Below, one piece after another: positions 6,420 to 49,344 of a stretch of 64,000 bases of DNA (position 1 is the first letter of the stretch; every line of letters starts with the position of its first letter). The stretch lies in the NCBI RefSeq assembly GCF_002127655.1, contig NZ_NEHB01000032.1, positions 1-64,000 on the forward strand, written 5' to 3'. The DNA comes from Janthinobacterium sp. GW456P. Lineage in GTDB: Bacteria > Pseudomonadota > Gammaproteobacteria > Burkholderiales > Burkholderiaceae_D. The notes under the pieces were generated by a model. It was not told where the DNA came from. It saw only the letters and a list, made by a program, of their open reading frames with translations, and did not search any database. The position numbers were made by a program, and so were the translations under genes.

Positions 6420-7634
6420 TTACGAATACGCCGTCGGCTCGGGCAGCGTGTCGTTCAAGGCAAAGCGTCCCAGGTCGCGCAGCTTGTAGTCGATGGGGTC
6501 GTGCAGGGTATGCACGCGCACGTTGCGCCAGTAGCGGTCGAAGCCGTATTGGGCCGAGGTGGAGCGCGCGCCCGTCAGTTCGAACATCTGGCTGCTGATT
6601 TCAAGGCCCGCCTTGTGCGACAGGCATTTGGCTTCTGCGACAGCCACGGCCAGCAAGCCCCGTTCGCGCGCCGTCACCAGCGCGCCCTTGCGGAAGACCT
6701 TTTCCAGTTCCTGCGCCGCCGCGTCGGCCAGCACTTGCGCGGGGCGCAGCAAGAGCCACAGCTGGCCGTAGCGGTGCTGCACCAAAGGGTCATCCGTGGC
6801 TTGCGCCACGCCCGAGGCAAACCAGGCTTTCGCCTGCTCGTCCGTGTAGCGGCGCGCCGCCTCGAACGCGCCTTCGGCGATGCCCAGGTACAGATTGGTC
6901 ATGATCAGCTGCGCGATCTGCGAGCGCACGGTGGCTTGCGGCGTGGCGGCCTGCGCGGGCGCCTGCAGCACCAGCTCGCGCGCCAGGGCGACTCCTTCAA
7001 AGTGGACATTGCCGCTATCCGTCTGGCGCTGGCCGAACGCGTCCCAGTCCGCCTGCACGGTCACGCCATCCTGGCGCGTGGGCAGGGCGGCGATCAGCGC
7101 CGTCTGCGTGGGCGCGTGCCAGGCGGAGACGGTCAGCCAGTCGGAGCCGACGGAACCGGACGAAAAGCTCTTGATGCCGTCGAGGACGTAGCCGTCGCCG
7201 CTGTCGCTGGCCGTGACCCGTTTGTCGAGGGGATTCAAGGCATTGCCCCAGAACAGACGCTCGTCGACGGTCAAGGCAAGCAGGCGGCGCTGCTGCTGCG
7301 CGCTGCCATACAGCTGCAGGCCCGCCAGTTGCAGATGGTGGAAGCCGAAGACATGCGCCAGCGCGCTGTCGGCCCGCGCCAGGATGCGGATCACCTGGTA
7401 CACGAGGGGCCACGACGCGCCCTGGCCGCCGAATTCCACGGGAATCGACAAAGTGAGCAGACCTGAATCGCGCAGCCATTCGCGTTCCTGCGCCGCGTGG
7501 CCGCCGGCCTGGTCGCGGGCATTGGCCGTTTCGGCCAGGCGCGCGGCCAGCGTTGTGGCGATGCGGATGGCGTCCTGCAGGGGTTCCGCTGCAAATGCGT
7601 CGGGGCGGGTGGCATGGAGAAAAGCGCTGGACAT
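6420..7634 (-). CDS. sfnB: SfnB-family acyl-CoA-dehydrogenase-like sulfur oxidoreductase
   Basis: A flavoprotein of 404 residues with the acyl-CoA dehydrogenase fold, closest in layout to the SfnB/DszC group used in dimethyl sulfone and thiophene-type sulfur acquisition. Visible marks are WLRDSGLLTLSIPVEFGGQG near the N-terminus, LFWGNALNP in the middle and a C-terminal ELTGARSTSAQYGFDRYWRN stretch. The ATG at 7634 is preferred over an upstream start at 7730, which lies in the promoter region. It is first in the leftward operon, divergent from ssuE. It probably works with the downstream monooxygenase; the exact sulfur substrate is inference. Confidence 0.82.
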   Translation of the reverse strand: MSSAFLHATRPDAFAAEPLQDAIRIATTLAARLAETANARDQAGGHAAQEREWLRDSGLLTLSIPVEFGGQGASWPLVYQVIRILARADSALAHVFGFHHLQLAGLQLYGSAQQQRRLLALTVDERLFWGNALNPLDKRVTASDSGDGYVLDGIKSFSSGSVGSDWLTVSAWHAPTQTALIAALPTRQDGVTVQADWDAFGQRQTDSGNVHFEGVALARELVLQAPAQAATPQATVRSQIAQLIMTNLYLGIAEGAFEAARRYTDEQAKAWFASGVAQATDDPLVQHRYGQLWLLLRPAQVLADAAAQELEKVFRKGALVTARERGLLAVAVAEAKCLSHKAGLEISSQMFELTGARSTSAQYGFDRYWRNVRVHTLHDPIDYKLRDLGRFALNDTLPEPTAYS

Positions 7635-8534: not shown

Positions 8535-9545
8535 ATGACACACCGCCACGCACAACGCCTTTCGCGCCGTACCACTCTGGGTCTGCTGTTTGCCGCCGCT
8601 GCCGGCGTGATGGCGGCCGGCATGCCGGCCGCGGCACAGGCGCAGGCCAAGGGGGAAGTGCAGGTGCAGGTACGTATTGGCTACCAGAAATACGGCACAT
8701 TGACCTTGCTGAAGGGACGCGGCACTTTGGAAAAGCGCCTGGCGGGGCAGGGCGTGGGCGTGCAATGGACGGAGTTCCCGGCCGGCCCCGTGCTGCTCGA
8801 GGGCTTGAACGTGGGCAGCATCGATTTCGGCACCGTGGGCGAGGCGCCGCCGATCTTTGCGCAGGCGGCGGGCGCCAACCTGGTGTATGTCGGCAATGAG
8901 CCGGCGTCGCCCGCCAGCGAAGCCATCGTCGTGCCCAAGGGCTCCGGCCTGCGCACCCTGGCCGACTTGAAGGGCAAGAAAATCGCCCTGAACAAGGGCT
9001 CGAACGTGCATTACCTGTTGTTGAAAGCGCTGGAAAAGGCGGGTATTGCGTACGCCGACATCCAGCCCGTGTTCCTGCCGCCGGCCGATGCGCGCGCCGC
9101 TTTTGAACGGGGCAGCGTCGATGCCTGGGCCATCTGGGATCCGTTCCTGGCGGCCGCCGAAAAGCAGCTGGGCGCCCGCGTGCTGGCCGACGGCAAGGGC
9201 CTGGTGGCGAACTACCAGTTTTATCTCGCCTCGCGCACGTATGCGGAAAAGCATCCCGAGATCCTGCGCATCGTGCTCGACGAAGTCGCCAAGGTCGATG
9301 ACTGGGGCCGCAACCACCCGGAGGAAGTGGCGGCGATCCTGTCGGCGCAGACGGGGCTGGGCAAGGATGTCGTGGCGCTGGCCGCTACGCGCTATGCGTA
9401 TGGCGTCAAACCCGTGTCGGTCGACGTCATCGCCTCGCAGCAAAGGGTGGCCGATGCGTTTTCCAGCCTGAAGCTGATCCCGAAGCCGATCGTCGTCAAG
9501 GATGCGCTGCTGCCGGCGCGCCAGCTGGCCACCAGCGCAAAATAA
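8535..9545 (+). CDS. ssuA: Aliphatic sulfonate ABC transporter binding protein SsuA
   Basis: The 336-residue periplasmic receptor delivers alkanesulfonates to SsuBC. The signal peptide carries a twin-arginine-like SRRTTLGLL at about residues 11-19 and ends in AQAQA, so Tat export is possible. The mature part shows RIGYQKYGTLTLLKGRG, FGTVGEAPPIFAQAAGA and SVDAWAIWDPF, all usual in SsuA. It follows ssuE by 24 bases and precedes ssuD by 12. GGAAGCACC lies just before the ATG. Confidence 0.93.
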   Translation: MTHRHAQRLSRRTTLGLLFAAAAGVMAAGMPAAAQAQAKGEVQVQVRIGYQKYGTLTLLKGRGTLEKRLAGQGVGVQWTEFPAGPVLLEGLNVGSIDFGTVGEAPPIFAQAAGANLVYVGNEPASPASEAIVVPKGSGLRTLADLKGKKIALNKGSNVHYLLLKALEKAGIAYADIQPVFLPPADARAAFERGSVDAWAIWDPFLAAAEKQLGARVLADGKGLVANYQFYLASRTYAEKHPEILRIVLDEVAKVDDWGRNHPEEVAAILSAQTGLGKDVVALAATRYAYGVKPVSVDVIASQQRVADAFSSLKLIPKPIVVKDALLPARQLATSAK

Positions 9546-46580: not shown

Positions 46581-46613
46581 TTGAGCATCGCAATATACGT
46601 CTGTATATTGCGC
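46581..46613 (+). promoter_or_regulatory. ModE-like box 1 with embedded promoter hexamers
   Basis: Perfect 10-bp arms CGCAATATAC and GTATATTGCG around GTCT (46589-46612) match the ModE pattern (CGC-A/T-ATATA, six bases, TATAT-x-x-CG). The same stretch reads TTGAGC (46581-46586), 17 bases, TATATT (46604-46609), a sigma-70 layout, so a bound regulator would cover the promoter. A transcript from here would have a leader of about 80 bases before the receptor start. Confidence 0.65.
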
Positions 46614-46650
46614 TGTTGCGTGACGGCCGCCGCAGAGGTGGTCGCTTTTT

Positions 46651-46682
46651 TTGAGCATCGCTATATAAGACGATATATAACG
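46651..46682 (+). promoter_or_regulatory. ModE-like box 2 with embedded promoter hexamers
   Basis: ATCGCTATATA (46657-46667), AGACGA, then TATATAACG (46674-46682) agrees with the ModE consensus even in its asymmetric C/A pair. TTGAGC (46651-46656), 17 bases and TATATA (46674-46679) again give a promoter layout. It ends 12 bases before the receptor ATG and repeats the 11-base TTGAGCATCGC of box 1 exactly 70 bp downstream. Confidence 0.7.
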
Positions 46683-46694
46683 GAAGAGAACAAG

Positions 46695-48689
46695 ATGACG
46701 ATGGTGAAACAGGTAATGGCAGGCGCCGTGACGCTGGCGCTGGCGCAGACGGCGCAGACGGTGCAGGCGCAGCAGACAGCAGGCAAAGATGAGCCTGCGC
46801 CGTTCGTGCTGGGCACGGTGACGGTGATCGGCCAGCGCGAGCAGGCAGGCCAAATGGAACAGCAGGTGGGGGCGCAAGTGAGCCGTGCCGAGATGCGCCG
46901 CTTCAACCGCGACAACGTGGGCGACGCCCTGAACCTGCTGTCCGGCGTGTCGCTGTCGACCAATGCGCGCAACGAGAAAACCGTCGCCATCCGCGGCTTC
47001 GATGCGCGCCAGGTGCCGCTGTACATCGACGGCATTCCCGTCTACGTGCCGTATGACGGCTACGTCGATTTCAACCGTTTCACCACCAGCGACCTTGCCG
47101 CCATCCAGGTGGCCAAGGGTTACAGTTCCGTGGCGTATGGCGGCAATACCCTGGGCGGCGCCATCAACCTGGTGTCGCGCAAACCGACGGCTTTGATGGA
47201 AGGCGACAGCTCCGTCGGATTCGGCTCGGGCAGCGAGCGCCAGGTGTCGGCCAACGTGGGAACGAACCAGGGCCTGTGGTATCTGCAGGCGGGCGTGTCG
47301 TATATCGACAGCGACGGTTTTCCCCTGTCGTCCGATTTCCGCCCCACGGCCACGGAAGACGGCGGCATGCGCAACAACGCGTATCGCAAGGACCGCAAGC
47401 TGTCGTTCAAGGTCGGCTACACGCCGGCGGGCGGCGACGAGTATGCACTGAGCTACTACAAGCAGCATGGCGAAAAGGGCCAGCCGCCATCGACGAATCC
47501 CGTGGGCGCGCGCTACTGGCAGTGGCCTTACTGGAACAAGGAGAGCGTGTATGTCGTCTCGCAGACCCGTCTGGGCCAGCAGGAACGCCTGAAACTGCGC
47601 CTGTACCACGACAGCTACGACAATGAAATCACCTCGTTCACCAATGGCAGCTACAGCACCATCAAGACGAGTGGCCAGGGCAGCGTCAGTGGCGGGCGCA
47701 GCATCTATAACGACCGCACGAATGGCGGTGCGGTGGAACTTGAATCGTTCCGACTGGCCGCGCACAGCCTGCGTTTTGTGGCCAGCTACAAGGCCGACGA
47801 GCACCAGGAACTCGACGCCAGAGGCGTGCGCACCACCTGGTACAAGGATGCGCTGTGGACCCTGGGCGCGGAAGACAGCATCGCCCTCAATGCGGCAACG
47901 GAGCTGTCGCTGGGCGCCTCGCGCAACGCGCTGCGCCCGGACACCGTCTACAGCGCCGGCAATGGGTATACCTTGCCGGGCGATCAGTCGGCCAACGACC
48001 TGCAGGCGGGCCTGTTCCACAAGCTGGCGCCAGAGTCGCGCGTATATGCCACCGTGGCGCGCAAGTCGCGCCTGCCGACCCTGAAGGACCGCTATTCGCA
48101 GCGCCTGGGCACGTACATCGAAAATCCGGCCTTGCGCGCGGAAGAGGCAATGAATTATGAGCTGGGCTACCAAGCAAACGTGCGCGGGCTGGCGCTCGAT
48201 GCCGCCGTGTTCTACAGCGACGTAAAGGACAAGATACAGAGCGTGGCGAATGTGGCTGGTGTGCGTGCGCAGATGCGGAATGCGGGCAGGGCGCACATCA
48301 AAGGCGTGGAACTGGGCGTGCGCGGCCGCGCCGGCGCCTGGCTCGATTTCGGCGGCAACTACACGTACACGAACATGAAAAATATCAGCGACCGCGCCAT
48401 CCGCCTGACGGATGTGCCGCGCCACAAGCTGACGGCGCACGCCGTGCTGCACGCGGCGCGCCAGGTCGACGTGGTGGCCATCGCGGAAGCGAACAGCGGC
48501 CGCTGGGTTTCGAACACGCTGGAATTGAAAAGCTTTGCCACCGTGAACCTGAAAGCCGTGGTCCGGCCCTTGCCGGCCTTGAGCCTGGAAGCGGGCGTGA
48601 GCAACCTGGGCGACCGCAATGTCGCGCTGGCCGAGGGTTTCCCCAGCGCGGGCCGCACGTGGCTGGCCAATGCGCAATACCAGTTCTGA
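46695..48689 (+). CDS. TonB-dependent outer-membrane receptor, putatively molybdenum-related
   Basis: The 664-residue receptor has a signal peptide ending AQA (about residue 25), a TonB-box-like FVLGTVTVIG near residue 36, a plug domain (ALNLLSGVSLSTN, IRGFDARQVPLYIDGIPVY, YGGNTLGGAINLVS) and a 22-strand barrel ending in the aromatic QYQF. It imports a large or scarce ligand using TonB energy. Two ModE-like boxes upstream suggest repression by molybdate, and a SUOX-fold gene follows after 27 bases. No Fur box is seen. The start at 46695 has GGAAGAG upstream; the frame before it is promoter DNA. Confidence 0.88.
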   Translation: MTMVKQVMAGAVTLALAQTAQTVQAQQTAGKDEPAPFVLGTVTVIGQREQAGQMEQQVGAQVSRAEMRRFNRDNVGDALNLLSGVSLSTNARNEKTVAIRGFDARQVPLYIDGIPVYVPYDGYVDFNRFTTSDLAAIQVAKGYSSVAYGGNTLGGAINLVSRKPTALMEGDSSVGFGSGSERQVSANVGTNQGLWYLQAGVSYIDSDGFPLSSDFRPTATEDGGMRNNAYRKDRKLSFKVGYTPAGGDEYALSYYKQHGEKGQPPSTNPVGARYWQWPYWNKESVYVVSQTRLGQQERLKLRLYHDSYDNEITSFTNGSYSTIKTSGQGSVSGGRSIYNDRTNGGAVELESFRLAAHSLRFVASYKADEHQELDARGVRTTWYKDALWTLGAEDSIALNAATELSLGASRNALRPDTVYSAGNGYTLPGDQSANDLQAGLFHKLAPESRVYATVARKSRLPTLKDRYSQRLGTYIENPALRAEEAMNYELGYQANVRGLALDAAVFYSDVKDKIQSVANVAGVRAQMRNAGRAHIKGVELGVRGRAGAWLDFGGNYTYTNMKNISDRAIRLTDVPRHKLTAHAVLHAARQVDVVAIAEANSGRWVSNTLELKSFATVNLKAVVRPLPALSLEAGVSNLGDRNVALAEGFPSAGRTWLANAQYQF

Positions 48690-48716
48690 TTTATCACTGT
48701 CATGAAAGGACACAGC

Positions 48717-49256
48717 ATGTTGAAGAAAATATTGGCTGGCTTTACCTCGGTGGCGTTGCTGGCCGCGGCGCCCGCGTGGTCCGCCGTTCCCGCGCCTGCG
48801 CGCGACAACATGAGCCATGCGTTGGCCGTGACGGGCAAGGTGGCAACGCCCTTGACCCTGAAGGTGGCCGACCTGCGCCAGTTGCCGCCCGCGAACGGCG
48901 GAGAGATCGCCGTCACGCGCCACAACGGCGACAAGGCCGAAACCATCACCAGTTACAAGGGCGTGCGCCTGCGCGATATCCTCGACAAGGCGGCGCTCGA
49001 TGCGCCCGGTCACAACGACGCAAAGAAGATCGCCATCATCGCCACGGCCACCGATGGCTATGCGGTGGTGTTTTCCTGGGGCGAGCTGTATAACTCTCCG
49101 GCTGGCGAAGGCGTGATCGTCTACTACGAAAAGAACGGCAAGGCGCTCGACGACGGCGATGGCGAGATCGCCCTCATCTCGGCGAAGGATATCCGCACGG
49201 GTCCGCGCCATGTGAAGTGGCTGAACGCCATCGAGGTGCGCAAGCTGGTGGAGTGA
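48717..49256 (+). CDS. Exported SUOX-fold (molybdopterin-oxidoreductase-like) protein without cysteine
   Basis: The 179-residue protein has a signal peptide (about residues 1-22, ending AWSA). The rest resembles the oxidoreductase molybdopterin-binding (SUOX) domain: LTLKVADLRQLP, ITSYKGVRLRDILDKA, IAIIATATDGYAVVFSWGEL and DIRTGPRHVKWLNAIEVRKL. It contains no cysteine, so the Mo-ligating Cys of sulfite oxidase is missing and catalysis of that type is unlikely. Position directly behind a ModE-boxed receptor suggests a periplasmic binding partner. AAAGGA precedes the ATG at 48717; an ATG at 48702 is less likely. Confidence 0.82.
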   Translation: MLKKILAGFTSVALLAAAPAWSAVPAPARDNMSHALAVTGKVATPLTLKVADLRQLPPANGGEIAVTRHNGDKAETITSYKGVRLRDILDKAALDAPGHNDAKKIAIIATATDGYAVVFSWGELYNSPAGEGVIVYYEKNGKALDDGDGEIALISAKDIRTGPRHVKWLNAIEVRKLVE

Positions 49257-49295
49257 CGCTGTGAAGCTGTGACTGATTGACGCAATGACGAAAAC

Positions 49296-49330
49296 CGCTG
49301 CCGTGGAGCCATCCCCGGCAGCGTTTTTTT
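49296..49330 (+). terminator. Rho-independent terminator after the receptor operon
   Basis: CGCTGCCG (49296-49303) and CGGCAGCG (49316-49323) form an 8-bp stem with a 12-base loop, followed by seven T. Four A before the stem give weaker termination for the convergent hydrolase operon on the other strand. Confidence 0.85.
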
Positions 49331-49344
49331 ACCTTTCCTGTCTA

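Follow-up and report, generated by a model that had tools for sequence, protein, structure and literature searches.

How scarce molybdenum crosses the outer membrane seems to be little studied. One route was found, the T6SS-ModA-IcmP system of Pseudomonas aeruginosa, which the available part of its account presents as an outer-membrane route for molybdate (PMC8602904). For the regulator ModE, the excerpt of PMC545781 gives the operator consensus ATCGNTATATA-N6-TATATANCGAT, which provides 20 fixed positions for scoring. TonB-dependent receptors for metals other than iron are represented by zinc, whose receptor and Zur regulon are the subject of PMC2895646 and PMC4176598, as far as their accessible parts go. 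In the portion of PMC4031551 at hand, MolA is described as binding molybdate and tungstate. The nearest characterised analogue in kind of the locus described here is PruR, a periplasmic pterin-binding protein. A ModE-controlled TonB receptor is not described in the titles and abstract openings listed from the open-licence PMC literature.

A candidate for such a receptor was found in Janthinobacterium sp. GW456P, in a stretch of 64,000 nucleotides called the window. Judged from its sequence, the receptor gene and the gene following it form a unit that is very likely controlled by ModE and likely serves molybdenum acquisition; both taken together, it is probably a ModE-controlled system for acquiring molybdenum across the outer membrane. 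Its features are the following:

46581..46609, + strand: promoter-like site P1, TTGAGC-N17-TATATT, with the -10 element within box 1
46589-46612, no strand assigned: ModE-type box 1, CGCAATATA-CGTCTG-TATATTGCG, a perfect 9-base inverted repeat
46624..46651, + strand: GC-rich hairpin with a downstream T run, terminator-like, between boxes 1 and 2
46651..46679, + strand: promoter-like site P2, weaker than P1, TTGAGC-N17-TATATA, overlapping box 2 (by eye)
46659-46682, no strand assigned: ModE-type box 2, CGCTATATA-AGACGA-TATATAACG
46695..48689, + strand: TonB-dependent outer-membrane receptor of 664 aa with Pfam plug and beta-barrel domains
48717..49256, + strand: small exported SUOX-fold protein of 179 aa (PF00174)
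49296..49330, + strand: intrinsic terminator closing the unit (fold and shuffle test on 49290-49332)

An earlier note on this DNA had reported two dyads carrying the letters of the ModE pattern. Both palindromes are real, but the quoted letters occur in box 2 only. Box 2 matches the consensus at 18 of the 20 positions, a score reached by none of 200 Markov shuffles and none of 289 other stretches of the window. The 24-base pattern CGNWATATAN6TATATWNCG was scanned over the 6.27 Mb genome at up to 3 mismatches and gave 18 places (3 at zero, 1 at two and 14 at three mismatches). The three perfect boxes are the two before the receptor and one before modA. Since the reversed pattern yielded 29 places at the same threshold against 18 for the true one, weight rests on the perfect sites only; at zero mismatches, a related ModE pattern had no match in the control. 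With this control empty and box 2 unmatched in shuffles and other stretches, chance was rejected as the origin of the boxes. P1 shows 9 of 12 promoter matches and is weak alone, one such site being found against 0.8 expected in shuffles; its TTGAG is invariant across 14 aligned loci, the window counted in. P2 has 8 of 12 matches, which is under the scan threshold, and its -35 element is less conserved in these loci. The hairpin between the boxes folds with -14.6 kcal/mol (z -1.7; 10 of 200 shuffles equally good), and its sequence is mostly kept in the same alignment.

The ModE gene on which such control depends is encoded in the genome beside modABC. Its product combines an HTH with two Mop/TOBE domains, TIGR00637 and TIGR00638 both scoring above their cut-offs (HTH 104.2 bits, cut-off 98.5; Mop 145.5, cut-off 55). 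ModA (201.9 bits, cut-off 62.5) and ModB (244.4, cut-off 182.6) are recognised likewise; ModC reaches 193.6, under its cut-off of 285. The third perfect box precedes modA-modB-modC-modE on the separate contig C34, and modA, modB and modC are absent from the receptor-SUOX unit itself.

The gene downstream of the boxes encodes a TonB receptor, as had been supposed. Plug (71.6 bits) and TonB_dep_Rec (107.3 bits) domains are found, the AlphaFold2 model has pLDDT 81.5 and pTM 0.84, and all 50 Foldseek matches listed are TonB-dependent transporters; plug and barrel are present. The stretch LGTVTVIG at residues 39-46, with L39, G40 and V44 nearly invariant, resembles an N-terminal TonB box. Among the 68 plug matches of the genome, perfect boxes precede one alone, that at 46695-48689.

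The receptor is uncommon, being present in 15 of 399 genomes of the order (its own genome included). Within Janthinobacterium, 13 loci were fetched via the SUOX gene, and all 13 keep the receptor and both boxes, each box with 0-1 mismatch; of the six genomes listed for the genus, two lack the SUOX gene. In other genera, ModE, Mop or Mod genes lie near 10 of the 19 receptor relatives examined; modA, modB, Mop and ModE genes are missing from the fetched stretch of the other nine. In L040 the order box-modA-modB-modC-receptor-SUOX-modE forms a single cluster, L039 unites receptor, SUOX-fold gene, modABC and a di-Mop gene in one stretch, and in L066-L069 and L088, too, a receptor and a SUOX-fold gene share one stretch with mod or ModE genes. 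L077 has two perfect boxes before the receptor and a di-Mop gene, a divergent ModE gene stands by the receptor in L086, and a ModE-like HTH gene adjoins it in L087. Five of the 19 relatives (L078-L081, L084) adjoin a MolA-like binding protein, whose family also serves siderophores and B12, and four (L076, L082, L083, L085) a di-haem oxidoreductase together with an SBP_bac_6 protein. Among the plug matches listed, the fetched stretch of six other genomes holds the receptor relative and no further one. Operator scores before the receptor in other genera are 15-19 of 20 at 10 of the 18 loci scored and at most 14 at eight, with no site above 14 before L067, L069, L078, L079, L081, L082, L084 or L088; L080 is scored here from its corrected start, and L086 has a site with 2 mismatches by a pattern other than this consensus.

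Of the loci found with the SUOX-fold protein, 15 of 21 are mod loci (9 of the 10 new ones from the search of the order, 6 of the 11 from that of the family), and L088 is a further one. In L041, L044, L045, L047 and L070-L074 they stand with modA, modB, Mop or ModE and a receptor was not detected; L045 gave no solved-structure match at E <=1. None of these four genes was found in the fetched stretch of L042, L043 and L075, which lie at or near contig ends, or of L046, L048 and L049, which are weak SUOX matches.

In the window, the SUOX-fold gene begins 27 bases past the receptor stop, as first described, given the start at ATG 48717 (the alternative ATG 48702 would give 184 aa). The protein matches PF00174 with 44 bits, and its model (pLDDT 83.4) finds YedY/MsrP, sulfite oxidases and PruR in Foldseek (7kom with TMt 0.72, also 7kos and 7kp2; 13-17% identity); by sequence, PruR is not among the profile matches up to E 10. 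The leader MLKKILAGFTSVALLAAAPAWSA appears Sec-type by eye, and the twin arginine of Tat export is, by eye, absent from it. The strong terminator that had been noticed closes the unit (-22.2 kcal/mol, z -6.7; none of 200 shuffles as good), and beyond it an opposite-strand ORF of 338 aa looks alpha/beta hydrolase-like by eye. The window protein has no cysteine, and at the column of the Mo-ligand Cys it carries Arg68, Arg being found in all 14 Janthinobacterium rows (window and 13 loci). A function as molybdoenzyme was rejected on the missing Mo-ligand Cys of the Janthinobacterium copy. Eight relatives (L039, L040, L066-L069, L072, L074) do have Cys at this column, and L039, L040 and L066-L069 are receptor-linked; the missing Cys was therefore ruled out as a general key to function. 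The earlier note's reading as a molybdenum scavenging system with a cysteine-free protein is partly supported: the genome encodes ModE, the boxes are conserved as well as specific, and relatives of both genes lie in molybdate-transport loci in many cases. 'Cysteine-free', however, describes the window protein and does not characterise the system in general.

By analogy with E. coli ModE, Mo-ModE would occupy both boxes, over the promoter-like elements, and silence the unit when cytoplasmic molybdate is ample. As molybdate falls, the receptor would be made and import a scarce species of molybdenum, possibly of tungsten too, into the periplasm by TonB power. The cargo may be molybdate itself or a molybdenum chelate, the latter being slightly likelier given that small anions already pass through porins. 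With a remnant of the SUOX anion/pterin pocket (R164, H165, K167 and Arg68 in place of the Mo-ligand Cys), the SUOX-fold protein might then bind this cargo, or the organic part of it, and help to pass molybdenum to ModA-ModB-ModC, the operon under the third box. This role as a periplasmic binder aiding the hand-over to ModABC is proposed tentatively. That the receptor imports a molybdophore, another Mo-organic complex or foreign Moco, which a degenerate SUOX-fold carrier (Cys to Arg) strips or holds for ModA, is conceivable and somewhat doubtful.

The SUOX fold, common to Moco enzymes and PruR, could also point to salvage of molybdopterin-type or other pterins released by other cells, captured in a PruR-like manner, with molybdenum as a by-product or the pterin itself being used. 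PruR is, in the available part of its description, a periplasmic, cysteine-less protein of ~170 aa with a secretion signal that binds pterin (PMC13259868). GPRHVKWL of the window protein aligns with G.R.VKWL of sulfite oxidases, and a receptor would be reasonable for pterins, since they exceed free molybdate in size. This is nevertheless unlikely: the partners seen are the oxyanion genes modA, modB, Mop and ModE, and some mod loci hold SUOX-fold relatives although no receptor was detected there. Furthermore, profile matches to solved sulfite oxidases start well inside the chain, so the N-terminal part of these enzymes, which also holds the cofactor, is missing.

An iron-siderophore receptor under ModE, for instance an importer of both Fe and Mo chelates, is quite improbable. 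Catecholate siderophores also bind molybdate, and the Foldseek matches include PfeA with protochelin, a catecholate of Azotobacter that binds Mo. In NCBIfam, heme and siderophore receptors are nearest, every score being below cut-off, and a joint Fe/Mo transport cluster, with Fur boxes marked in a legend, is proposed for Acidithiobacillus ferrooxidans in the accessible part of PMC2631029. However, no siderophore biosynthesis gene was recognised by eye among the ORFs around the unit, and molybdate genes adjoin the 10 receptor relatives mentioned above. Structure comparison was uninformative about the ligand, PirA, BtuB, OprC and PfeA scoring alike against the receptor model. Recruitment of a generic receptor to real boxes to take up some unrelated nutrient, for example a molybdoenzyme substrate, would suit the control of molybdoenzyme operons by E. 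coli ModE and the four relatives that adjoin a di-haem oxidoreductase and a different binding protein. It is highly improbable, since the receptor tree shows receptor-mod adjacency on separate branches (from the window to L068, L069 and L088), which would not be expected of a one-off event.

Under the preferred reading, molybdenum acquisition, a receptor tied to ModE by operator and neighbourhood is a concrete candidate for an outer-membrane molybdenum route. If correct, molybdenum would be one more metal imported by TonB receptors, short exported SUOX-fold proteins would gain a suggested function, and receptors now labelled as siderophore receptors a better annotation. Should the cargo be a Mo-organic complex, a molybdoenzyme fold would have been repurposed as a nutrient-binding protein.

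With the ModE regulon and ModABC of the E. coli type the locus shares a consensus-matching box, a ModE composed of an HTH and two TOBE domains, and a boxed modABC in the genome; the ModE account in the excerpt of PMC545781 is without an outer-membrane receptor or SUOX-fold protein. Like ZnuD for zinc and OprC for copper, the latter among the Foldseek matches, it would have a TonB receptor for a metal that is not iron, but the regulator is ModE, the predicted metal is molybdenum, and identities are 15-18% among the Foldseek matches listed. A link to MolBC-A of Haemophilus influenzae is suggested by seven receptor relatives adjoining a Peripla_BP_2 protein; HI_1472, which is MolA, is the fourth solved match for this neighbour in L077 and the second in L081. 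However, the best match for both is 4pag, further matches are siderophore or B12 proteins, and the importer in Janthinobacterium is ModABC instead of MolBC-A. PruR is likewise a short exported periplasmic SUOX fold without the Mo-ligand cysteine, with Trp at this column in place of Arg. It pairs with the signalling proteins DcpA or DTB, whereas such a partner was not found next to the SUOX-fold gene, whose neighbours are the receptor and the hydrolase-like ORF (by eye) and whose family lies in mod loci. T6SS-ModA-IcmP, also an outer-membrane route for molybdate, employs IcmP in the outer membrane together with a ModA that is secreted, whereas here a ModE-boxed TonB receptor would take this part.

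The ModE-boxed receptor unit of Janthinobacterium sp. GW456P is real, specific and conserved, and a role in molybdenum handling is probable for it. The unit lies on contig C26 and is composed of the following elements, in this order:

46589-46612, box 1, a ModE-type palindrome covering the spacer and −10 element of a promoter-like TTGAGC-N17-TATATT found by promoter scan
46624-46651, GC hairpin followed by a T run
46659-46682, box 2, a ModE-type palindrome enclosing the spacer and −10 element of a second promoter-like site, read by eye and not listed by the scan
46695-48689, plus strand, TonB-dependent receptor gene
48717-49256, plus strand, small exported SUOX-fold gene, 27 bases behind the receptor
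downstream of the SUOX-fold gene, terminator

Upstream of the unit and facing the other way is an IclR-type gene, whose top NCBIfam match (PcaR/PcaU) stays under the cut-off. An alignment of 14 loci shows conservation of both boxes, of the first TTGAG and of most of the hairpin. The terminator-like hairpin between the boxes shows only a mild folding gain over shuffled sequences (z −1.7). Since a transcript begun at the promoter-like site ahead of it would run straight into it, it may be an attenuator or the source of a tiny RNA.

A scan of the 6.27 Mb genome with the pattern CGNWATATAN6TATATWNCG yielded just three perfect matches, the two boxes of the unit and a third on contig C34 (C34:244738-244761), from which the ATG of modA is 35 bases further on. 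Imperfect matches comprise one place with two mismatches and 14 with three; the reversed pattern, used as control, gave 29 places in all. The cluster under the third box is composed of modA, modB, modC and modE, and hence the ModE gene on which the reading of the earlier note depended is encoded in this genome. Among 68 plug matches in the genome a perfect box is found at the window receptor only, and in six other genomes, with 6 to 55 plug matches each, the receptor relative stands alone in the fetched stretch among the matches listed. Next to the modA box, a CTGTATATAAACACAGTATA site (C34:244664-244688, 8665-8689 of the fetched locus L007), which we take to be LexA-like, precedes a gene divergent from modA that appears radical-SAM-like by eye; similar sites exist at C8:88942 and C56:85261. 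A short TOBE-domain (molbindin-like) protein is encoded on contig C5 (about 5863-6288 of L008), and the genome scan gave no perfect ModE box at its gene.

The loci closest to the unit belong to Janthinobacterium. Thirteen of them were found via the SUOX gene (85–94 % identity), whose presence there is therefore by construction; three of these contigs are apparently identical to those of L050-L052. The receptor is present in all 13 (86–91 % identity), as are both boxes, which are perfect in nine, one box having a single mismatch in the other four. Of the six same-genus genomes listed, four carry the SUOX gene, own genome counted. A stop codon lies within the receptor-aligned stretch of L028, which was left out of alignment A3.

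Outside the genus, SUOX relatives were assigned to a mod locus by modA, modB, ModE or Mop matches alone. The family search found relatives in 14 of 116 genomes, ten of them outside the genus with 11 loci, and six of these are mod loci (L039, L040, L041, L044, L045, L047); the fetched stretches of L042, L043, L046, L048 and L049 contain none of the four genes. The order search (E 1e-10) gave 12 of 399 genomes, ten of them new, with nine mod loci (L066-L074) and no such match in the fetched stretch of L075. A further SUOX relative in a mod locus, L088, was reached through the receptor search. Informative layouts are:

L040: box, modA, modB, modC, receptor, SUOX, modE
L041: box, SUOX, Mop
L044: two boxes of one mismatch each, from which modA and a two-domain SUOX gene diverge
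L045: SUOX, Mop, modA, with a ModE-like HTH gene alongside

The two-domain protein (L044 852-2033) ends in a segment presumably resembling a PEP-type anchor. In L041 a second ModE-type box, this one perfect (6498-6521), lies 3' of SUOX-Mop and 5' of another reading frame.

The SUOX-fold protein is a SUOX domain reduced in length; it bears a Sec-type leader and has an arginine replacing the cysteine ligand. Structural matches of its model (pLDDT 83.4) include YedY/MsrP, sulfite oxidases and PruR, and all 22 rows of alignment A2 share D113, E123, R164 and H165 (numbering with 48717 as start). The Mo-ligand column, assigned by alignment with sulfite oxidases and by L039-type motifs like the sulfite oxidase LQCAGN, contains Arg68 in the window and arginine in the 13 Janthinobacterium rows and L070, cysteine in L039, L040, L066-L069, L072 and L074, valine in L069b and a gap in the remaining rows. 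The extra positive charge of Arg68 would suit an anion.

The receptor itself was found in 15 of 399 genomes of the order (E 1e-100) and in seven of 398 of the phylum (E 1e-95), three of them new. Among 19 receptor loci examined outside the genus (L039 and L040 included), ten contain mod, Mop or ModE genes (L039, L040, L066-L069, L077, L086-L088). Five others (L078-L081, L084) contain a Peripla_BP_2-type binding protein resembling that of L081 and L077, whose solved-structure matches include HI_1472 (presumably MolA); DUF2478 is found in four of the five, with no match in L080. As L077 and L086 combine the binding-protein set with Mop or ModE, this set is linked to molybdenum. DUF2478 genes recur beside receptor and MolA-like protein (L077-L079, L081, L084, L086), suggesting a role of DUF2478 in molybdenum handling. 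In the last four loci (L076, L082, L083, L085) the neighbours are an SBP_bac_6 binding protein and a di-haem oxidoreductase, and three of them (L076, L083, L085) carry ModE-like upstream sites of 15–17 of 20.

Scored against the 20 positions of the published consensus (PMC545781), the best upstream site reaches 15–19 in ten of 18 receptor loci (L039, L040, L066, L068, L076, L077, L080, L083, L085, L087), L080 with 15 measured from the reading-frame start, and at most 14 in eight (L067, L069, L078, L079, L081, L082, L084, L088). The scores of the high-scoring loci were reached by 0–1 of 200 shuffles; in L040, two of 52 stretches taken elsewhere in the locus equal its site. The L086 site (two mismatches by the box pattern) falls within the longest frame and outside this scoring.

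The receptors of the MolA-like group form a single clade (100/99) in a tree built from 25 receptor sequences. Receptors with mod-linked SUOX genes occupy three places, requiring four changes, so the link is either ancient with losses or of more than one origin. Across 27 receptors spanning all three neighbourhood types (L086-L088 excluded), motifs such as RNE (92-94), YVPYDGYVD (117-125) and WPxWxK (277-282) vary little or not at all, which suggests a common ligand of the three groups.

Beyond sequence features, conservation and neighbourhoods, we infer the mechanism from known families. Molybdate-bound ModE would repress the receptor unit, and molybdenum shortage would open it together with modABC. 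The receptor would then carry a molybdenum species into the periplasm, where the SUOX-fold protein may help, and ModABC would move it into the cell.

In the available portions of PMC545781, PMC8602904, PMC5343134, PMC13259868, PMC2631029, PMC10781756, PMC4965479, PMC7759655, PMC11734730, PMC10669500 and PMC4031551 no ModE-boxed receptor is described, and "TonB" does not occur in the available text of the molybdenum-enzyme review among them (PMC7759655). The available text on an acidophile proposes a combined Fe/Mo cluster (PMC2631029), and that on PruR (PMC13259868) describes a SUOX domain of this shortened kind as a periplasmic binder of a small pterin.
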